A DNA stretch of 64,000 nucleotides, taken from contig NC_037310.1 of NCBI RefSeq assembly GCF_000143535.2, forward strand, positions 1,922,001-1,986,000, in the 5' to 3' direction. A program made the translations under genes and the position numbers. The notes beneath the pieces were generated by a model. The model did no database searches and had not been told where the DNA came from. It worked only from the letters and a program-made list of their open reading frames with translations. The first letter of the stretch is position 1. The number at the start of each line of letters is the position of its first letter. Shown piece by piece: positions 10,940 to 11,704 of this stretch. This DNA is from Botrytis cinerea B05.10 (Eukaryota > Ascomycota > Leotiomycetes > Helotiales > Sclerotiniaceae).

Positions 10940-11498
10940 TAGTTTGATAATGGCTGGGAAGATAGAATGGCGTGTTGAAATGGATATTGTCATACACCCT
11001 AATACGAGGGACCTTTGAACCTGTTCAATGATCTCCAATGATGAATCGTGAGACGTCCTAGATGAGATTTTTACCTCAAATAACCTATACGCTTCGGCAT
11101 ATCGTACAACTAAAGACTAGCCAGTGACAACGATATGTAAGGTTTGTAGACAAACTCTTAGAACTATCGCCGAAGTATTGAGGGTGACTTTGTCGATTCT
11201 GTCATAAGTTAATATTGTATGTTGCATATTGTAACGAGTTGAATACTGTTTCTACGCTCCGACACATATGATAGATTTCCACTGAACTGATCAATACCAC
11301 TGCCATCCCGATTCACAAGTTCCACATACCAAACCCAGCCCAGCCCAGCCCAGCCCAGCGCAACCCACCCCACTCTTTCCCCCTCCTCCCAACCAATCCA
11401 TGCTCCTTGCCCACTCGACCCCACCCAACCCCTGCAAAAAACTCACCGCGCTCTAATATATATTTAAAAACGCCGGCTTCGTCAAACAAACATGCCAA
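10940..11498. other. Intergenic region upstream of the tRNA gene
   Basis: No gene is supportable. The minus ORFs at 11209-11424 and 11313-11498 are low-complexity translations of the CCCAG repeat. A TATA-like AT-rich stretch sits at about 11453-11470, roughly 30-45 bp ahead of the tRNA 5' end. Confidence 0.55.
11334..11360. repeat. CCCAG pentamer repeat
   Basis: About five head-to-tail CCCAG/CCAGC units, followed by a C-rich, G-poor stretch to about 11425. It lies about 140 bp upstream of the tRNA gene. Confidence 0.8.
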
Positions 11499-11511
11499 AC
11501 TCCAGTGACGC

Positions 11512-11572
11512 GTAAGTTACTGCCTCCATTCCAAAAATGAAGGTACATCATGGCTAATACAGAACATTACAG
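11512..11572 (+). other. GT-AG, spliceosomal-type intron inside the tRNA D-arm
   Basis: A 61-nt insertion between tRNA positions 13 and 14. It begins GTAAGT, has a CTAAT branch-site match with its A at 11557, and ends ACAG at 11572, about 15 nt after the branch A. Size and signals match the mRNA introns in this window. It divides the internal Pol III A box. It contains no TTTT run that would stop Pol III. That the spliceosome removes it is inference. Confidence 0.7.
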
Positions 11573-11596
11573 AGTGGTTAGCGTGTCGTTCTTATA

Positions 11597-11625
11597 TTCT
11601 TCCCCTTGTGGATTAATATGAAGTT
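11597..11625 (+). other. Conventional tRNA anticodon-loop intron
   Basis: 29 nt directly 3' of position 37, the position cut by the tRNA splicing endonuclease. tRNA-Ile(UAU) commonly has such an intron in fungi and animals. The exact 3' edge is set by keeping A38 and the TGCGA strand of the anticodon stem. Confidence 0.75.
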
Positions 11626-11692
11626 ATGCGAAAGTCGTGGGTTCGACACCCACCTGGAGTATCAATCTCTGGTAGACACCAAAACAACAATC

Positions 11693-11704
11693 TTTTTTTT
11701 TTTT
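11693..11704 (+). terminator. Pol III-type T-run terminator
   Basis: Run of 12 T residues starting 32 nt after the tRNA 3' end, the first T4+ run after the gene. It is consistent with Pol III termination on the plus strand. Confidence 0.7.

Follow-up and report, generated by a model that had tools for sequence, protein, structure and literature searches.

In the red alga Cyanidioschyzon merolae, tRNA-Ile(UAU) carries introns at 12/13, 37/38 and 53/54, of which those in the D-arm and T-arm are presumed to be excised ahead of the anticodon intron (PMC9602550). Such introns are attributed to bulge-helix-bulge (BHB) motifs and the splicing endonuclease (PMC3978253, PMC4090602). Outside tRNA, the U6 snRNA of fission yeast, a product of RNA polymerase III (Pol III), carries an mRNA-type intron (PMC10484740, PMC10581693) that is thought to stem from reverse splicing near catalytic nucleotides and that shows an intron of this type to be possible in a Pol III product (PMC10484740). 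We found no report of a spliceosomal intron in a tRNA gene among the matches listed from the open-licence PubMed Central literature, as represented by titles and the starts of abstracts, and wordings such as "spliceosomal introns in tRNA" did not occur, as exact phrases, in the open-licence PubMed Central papers searched. Here, we describe a locus of the fungus Botrytis cinerea B05.10, lying in a stretch of 64,000 nucleotides that we refer to as the window, whose sequence supports its reading as a nuclear gene for tRNA-Ile(UAU) that contains introns of two kinds.

This gene (copy 1; 11499-11661, plus strand) reads from the sequence as 13 + 61 + 24 + 29 + 35 nt followed by A73 (Table 1). An initial annotation had held that removal of 11512-11572 leaves a perfect 73-nt tRNA in which the 11 acceptor and D-stem pairs are all Watson-Crick. 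Rechecking the sequence gave the same 11 pairs, 7 in the acceptor stem and 4 in the D-stem, the two stems being separated by T8 and G9, and ARAGORN calls tRNA-Ile(tat), of 73 bases with a 29-nt intron at 37-38, once the insert is taken out and only then. "Perfect" is nevertheless too strong for the whole molecule, as the ARAGORN fold has a U31/U39 mismatch and a U30.G40 wobble in the anticodon stem. The expectation that ordinary scanners may miss such a gene was borne out by both programs used: with the insert left in, ARAGORN called no tRNA in the DNA of copy 1, and the Rfam tRNA model gave the unspliced copy 15.9 bits against a cut-off of 29, in the wrong register. Scans of the raw window with ARAGORN (no-intron, bacterial setting) and with Rfam (gathering cut-offs) returned nothing.

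Table 1. Coordinates within the window of the features assigned to copy 1 of the tRNA-Ile(UAU) gene and its surroundings.
Feature	Position	Strand	Basis
TATA-like element of the tRNA leader, TATATATTTAAAA	11457..11469	+	Aligns with a similar TAAATATTTAAA in copy 2
CAA-type start motif TCAAACA, possible Pol III start	11482..11488	+	YCAA leader motif
tRNA-Ile(UAU) exon 1, positions 1-13 (acceptor 5' strand, T8, G9, D-stem 5' strand)	11499..11511	+	11/11 pairs with 3' parts; ARAGORN after insert removal
Putative D-arm intron of spliceosomal type, at 13/14, 61 nt	11512..11572	+	GTAAGT start, GCTAAT with CTAAT branch-like site, ACAG end; 63-nt counterpart at the same position in copy 2
5' splice site GTAAGT	11512..11517	+	Sequence; same in copy 2 and in 1/4 mRNA introns placed in the window
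Branch-site-like CTAAT	11554..11558	+	15 nt from branch A to intron end; copy 2, CTGAC, 13 nt
3' splice site CAG	11570..11572	+	Sequence
tRNA exon 2, positions 14-37 (D-loop, D-stem 3' strand, anticodon stem 5' strand, UAU anticodon, A37)	11573..11596	+	22/24 identical in copy 2
Canonical tRNA intron after position 37, 29 nt	11597..11625	+	ARAGORN, insertion position 37-38
tRNA exon 3, positions 38-73 (anticodon stem 3' strand, variable loop, T-arm, acceptor 3' strand)	11626..11661	+	Positions 38-72, 11626-11660; A73, 11661
B box GGTTCGACACC	11640..11650	+	Sequence; also recovered by T-arm pattern
T12 run, probable Pol III terminator	11693..11704	+	Position downstream of the tRNA

A genome search with 11490-11680 returned two places, copy 1 itself and a 70% identical copy 2 on the minus strand of contig 3 (G000:C3:73438-73610). 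Read on its own strand, copy 2 has ACCCCGGTGACGC and then 63 nt running GTAAGT..CTAG, in which CTGAC lies close to the 3' end; positions 14-37 follow, including the UAU anticodon, and are separated from positions 38-73 by an intron of 28 nt at 37-38. ARAGORN calls it tRNA-Ile(tat) once the 63 nt are removed and does not recognize it otherwise. With the D-arm insert spliced out, both copies fold in ARAGORN into a cloverleaf with a UAU anticodon, A73 and one mismatched stem pair each (in copy 2, C3 against A70), and the 29- and 28-nt introns at 37-38 belong to the canonical nuclear class. The D-arm junction falls at the identical tRNA position in both, with no one-base slide possible in either, and at these fold-fixed ends both inserts show the U2-type pattern of GT..AG with a 5' splice site consensus. 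A CTRAY lies within the approximate range of 10 to 20 nt before the AG (15 and 13 nt), and the lengths, 61 and 63 nt, are similar to those of local mRNA introns.

The two copies agree in 60/72 exon columns and in 51/99 intron columns with gaps counted (Fisher p = 1.9e-5) or 51/82 with gap columns excluded (p = 0.004). Two stem pairs have changed on both sides, namely, 6-67 (A-U in copy 1, G-C in copy 2) and 30-40 (U-G in copy 1, A-U in copy 2). From this level of divergence, the duplication was not recent, and the putative D-arm introns of both copies have retained their splice signals while their bodies drifted. Copy 2 had been missed by the initial annotation, which had named a search for other tRNA-Ile(UAU) genes as a check; its core reading, a spliceosomal-type D-arm intron together with an ordinary 37/38 intron, now has the support of the sequence itself and of a second, diverged copy built in the same way. 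The original observation is confirmed and stronger than first reported.

The ends of the predicted excision are dictated by the tRNA fold, not by splice sites, yet they land exactly on GTAAGT and on CAG (copy 1) or TAG (copy 2). For exon 1, we held the 3' piece fixed and sought the 5' piece in the 500 nt upstream, wobble allowed, in 4,000 dinucleotide shuffles. Eleven pairs with T8, R9 and a following GT occurred in 0/4,000 shuffles and 10 pairs in 6/4,000; when the other conditions were dropped, 11 pairs arose by pairing alone in 42/4,000. Among 254 real 500-nt pieces of the window, a single one, which must be the piece holding the locus, had the 11 pairs with T8, R9 and GT. None of 400,000 random 61-mers began with GTAAGT, held CTRAY near the end and ended in YAG, and 136 had merely GT..CTRAY..AG. 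With free spacing, the strict signature occurs 2 times on the plus and 3 times on the minus strand of the window versus 0.6 in shuffles, and the loose one 8 and 11 times versus 11.0. Loose signals, occurring at chance level, prove nothing alone, so the weight rests on their fit to ends that the tRNA fold has set.

The insert, with GTAAGT, CTAAT and ACAG, had been likened to mRNA introns of the window, and lengths and branch distances bear out the likeness. For comparison, four such introns were placed by eye through protein continuity, with a branch pattern looser than CTRAY. They measure 55, 50, 53 and 120 nt, start with GTGCGT, GTACGA, GTAAGT and GTTGGT, and have their branch A at 16, 9, 10 and 17 nt from the end; the branch site is CTRAY in two of the four and CTAAG and TTGAC in the others. 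We take the genes that hold them to encode an FAH-type hydrolase, 3-hydroxyanthranilate dioxygenase, Npl4 and carbamoyl-phosphate synthase. The D-arm inserts, at 61 and 63 nt with branch-to-end distances of 15 and 13 nt, resemble these four. Copy 1 has an extra AG 10 nt before the intron end and 5 nt after the branch A. The spliceosome is known as the machine that reads GTAAGT..CTRAY..YAG.

Set beside the described systems, the locus combines features of several. The initial annotation had rightly named archaea and some red algae as having D-arm introns, and the parallel in C. merolae concerns the same tRNA (PMC9602550), with a second intron likewise at 37/38 and a D-arm intron one position apart (12/13 there, 13/14 here). 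That the same tRNA is affected in a red alga and in a fungus is striking. Unlike the alga, the fungus has GTAAGT..CTRAY..YAG in two diverged copies, has no conserved BHB and lacks the T-arm intron; the algal intron was compared by its description, and the parts of PMC9602550, PMC3978253 and PMC4090602 consulted mention no mRNA-type signals in it. As in fission-yeast U6, an mRNA-type intron lies within a small non-coding RNA that here, too, would be made by Pol III. In contrast to U6, which sits in the spliceosome, a tRNA does not occupy a place of that sort, and in this one an endonuclease-type intron has to be taken out as well. The 29- and 28-nt introns of the two copies are like canonical nuclear 37/38 introns as described in PMC4090602 and PMC4033280, from which the D-arm inserts differ in lying elsewhere in the tRNA, in being longer and in having splice-site sequences.

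We searched the genome (42,630,066 bases in 18 contigs) for an intact or another split tRNA gene of this kind. Pattern and BLAST searches, which cover the 42.6 Mb in part, found no contiguous tRNA-Ile(UAU) gene. The pattern GTGG..TTATA..GGTTCRANNC matched once in the genome, at copy 1. The wider pattern of TTATA, 14 to 74 nt and GGTTCRANNC had 111 matches, versus 291 for a reversed-pattern control; stretches for 95 of these places were scored by script, the remaining 16 being without a reading in context. Among the best 22 of 96 scored rows, just the two copies were tRNA-Ile(UAU)-like, and the other real tRNAs were, by eye, Val, Leu and Arg genes. When C32 was required as well (CTTATA), there were 24 matches, all of them listed, and none qualified but the two copies. 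The spliced 73-nt tRNA, used as a BLAST query at E up to 10, returned copy 1's own two pieces and nothing else; as copy 2 lies below the reach of this search, an equally diverged copy would be missed.

We also surveyed tRNA genes by their T-arms, a survey that covers only T-stems of CGGGTTCRANNCCCG or DGGGTTCRANNCCCH. The pattern CGGGTTCRANNCCCG gave 18 matches (control, 0), of which 17 were contiguous tRNA genes and the other was an orphan T-arm in AT-rich sequence. The pattern DGGGTTCRANNCCCH gave 61 (control, 9), comprising 53 contiguous tRNA genes (35 of 41 fetched matches plus 18 already known), 6 places without a tRNA and the 2 split copies. Thus, leaving the orphan aside, 2 of the 72 tRNA genes with surveyed T-arms (17 + 53 + 2) are split in the D-arm, and these are both tRNA-Ile(UAU) copies. 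A genome search with RF00005, in which 63 of 2,056 candidates were scored, is not a full inventory. Genes split at the same site were sought with TGGCNN|GTRAGT..AGARNGG, which had 4 matches (control, 3), none tRNA-like by eye, and the split D-arm pattern had 0 matches in bacterial and archaeal genome contigs and viral contigs. A whole-locus search at E up to 1, which weak or common repeats could escape, found just the two tRNA copies and so gave no sign of a mobile introner-like element. Taken at this coverage, the two split copies appear to be the sole suppliers of tRNA-Ile(UAU). The AUA codon is in use (8/44 Ile codons in two ORF stretches of the window), and the single tI(UAU) gene of fission yeast is called essential (PMC11912914).

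Both copies have a B box, a probable terminator and upstream TATA-like and CAA motifs like those of other tRNA genes of the genome. Among 49 genes (47 ordinary tRNA genes and both copies), a TATA-like word, loosely defined as any of six 5-mers, occurs at -80..-31 in 40, versus 47/120 background stretches, and YCAA occurs at -35..-1 in 40, versus 40/120; the two copies are positive for each. The first T4 begins about 32 nt beyond the tRNA of copy 1 and 6 nt beyond that of copy 2, compared with 0 to 65 nt in 30 ordinary genes. The A box is another matter, since the D-arm insert splits it between positions 13 and 14. On a matrix trained on nine distinct real boxes from 30 genes, the best contiguous A box scores 2.56 bits in copy 1 and 0.45 bits in copy 2, versus 11.4 to 16.0 for the same nine boxes; the spliced form scores 9.8 and 10.2, under all nine, and the best of random pieces has a median of 4.3 and a 95% point of 10.4. 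An A box hidden in the intron (TGGCTAA) was rejected, as it reaches 2.3 bits in copy 1 and nothing corresponds to it among the five best candidates of copy 2. With no good A box, either contiguous or spliced, expression of either copy is not assured. TATA- and CAA-assisted transcription of tRNA genes, sometimes independent of TFIIIC, is reviewed in PMC3978253.

The broken A box bears on whether both copies might be dead relics in which an intron-like segment has inserted, with the working gene unassembled or unmatched or with tRNA-Ile(IAU) reading AUA. The one mismatched stem pair in each copy, by which either could be decaying, points the same way, as do the 16 of 111 TTATA/T-arm places that have no reading in context. 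Against this, exons are better conserved than introns between two diverged copies, stems show two-sided changes next to a tRNA-type leader, splice signals were kept in both while the remaining intron drifted, and no other tRNA-Ile(UAU) gene was found by pattern, BLAST or T-arm searches. We regard this explanation as improbable, if the least improbable of the alternatives.

Removal of the D-arm insert by the tRNA splicing endonuclease through a BHB, with the GT..AG ends being incidental, would follow the route of the non-canonical archaeal introns and, as inferred in the literature, of those of C. merolae, whose tRNA-Ile(UAU) has an intron at 12/13 (PMC9602550), and copy 1 can form a 4-bp helix, GTAA/TTAC, adjoining the junctions (4/4 pairs). 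The best helix of copy 2, however, has 3/4 pairs, so that the BHB structure is not conserved, whereas GTAAGT, the CTRAY branch-like site and YAG are conserved in both copies. In PMC3978253, the endonuclease with its accessory subunits is thought unlikely to act on precursors split outside 37/38, the reason given being that yeast Sen54 probably contacts the D-arm and the acceptor stem. We give this route very little credence.

A transcript made by RNA polymerase II, longer than the gene and spliced like mRNA before the tRNA is cut out of it, would account for the absence of an A box as well as for the spliceosomal signals. It seems just as improbable as removal by the endonuclease, given that the TATA-like and CAA leader motifs match those of ordinary tRNA genes, that the B box is intact with T-runs about 32 and 6 nt past the tRNA, and that U6 provides an mRNA-type intron in a Pol III product (PMC10484740). 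A group I or group II intron was rejected because of the length, 61 to 63 nt.

The best explanation, and in our judgment a highly probable one, is that the D-arm intron is removed by the U2-type spliceosome from a transcript made by Pol III. Because the A box is split, Pol III would rely for guidance on the B box and on the TATA-like element further upstream, and would start near TCAAACA. The precursor would fold poorly while the 61-nt D-arm intron is present; the ordinary (U2-type) spliceosome would take this intron out in the nucleus, and the D-arm would be rebuilt. Only then would the tRNA splicing endonuclease cut out the 29-nt 37/38 intron, and tRNA ligase would join the halves. The Sen54 subunit of the yeast endonuclease is reported to contact the D-arm (PMC4090602, PMC3978253), from which we infer that the D-arm intron should leave before the 37/38 intron. 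The product would presumably be charged and used in translation, and copy 2 on contig 3 would be an old copy of the same design. We consider it likely, with somewhat less confidence than for spliceosomal removal itself, that the sole UAU-anticodon reader of AUA is the product of Pol III genes whose A box is split and requires the spliceosome followed by the tRNA endonuclease and ligase, and that the D-arm introns constitute a third class of nuclear tRNA intron, kept through duplication and divergence.

If this is true, a living fungus holds an exception to the rule on nuclear tRNA introns, and making this tRNA may need two unrelated splicing machines. As the tRNA that reads AUA would need the spliceosome, mRNA splicing would be a condition for decoding one codon and hence for much of the proteome. 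The locus would then offer a test bed for the action of the spliceosome on a very short, probably uncapped Pol III RNA, for transcription of a tRNA gene with a split A box, for the ordering of two splicing machines on one 160-nt precursor and for the entry of introns into RNAs outside mRNA. It may also mark a blind spot of annotation: the search of tRNAscan-SE 2.0 for non-canonical introns is described for its archaeal mode in the part of PMC8450103 consulted, so that fungal genes of this kind may be recorded as missing tRNAs.

The surveys yielded several further observations. A UCA-anticodon "tRNA-SeC" (tca) at L020:302-400 is probably a mis-model by ARAGORN and by eye is a tRNA-Leu(CAG) with an intron. 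The orphan T-arm with its acceptor 3' strand (G000:C7:683328; L079:165-255) lies in very AT-rich DNA, has no 5' half nearby that would match it and is likely a relic. The tRNA genes of this genome often have an intron in the anticodon region: ARAGORN, some of whose anticodons and intron limits are wrong, places one in 17/17 contiguous genes of the first T-arm survey and in 35/35 of those fetched from the second, but in 4/30 of another set of target genes. Copy 2 is situated some 73 kb from the end of a contig of 3.2 Mb. Lastly, a AAAAATGAAG block (11533-11542 in the window) is common to both D-arm introns despite divergence over most of their remaining length, and may reflect shared ancestry or an element.
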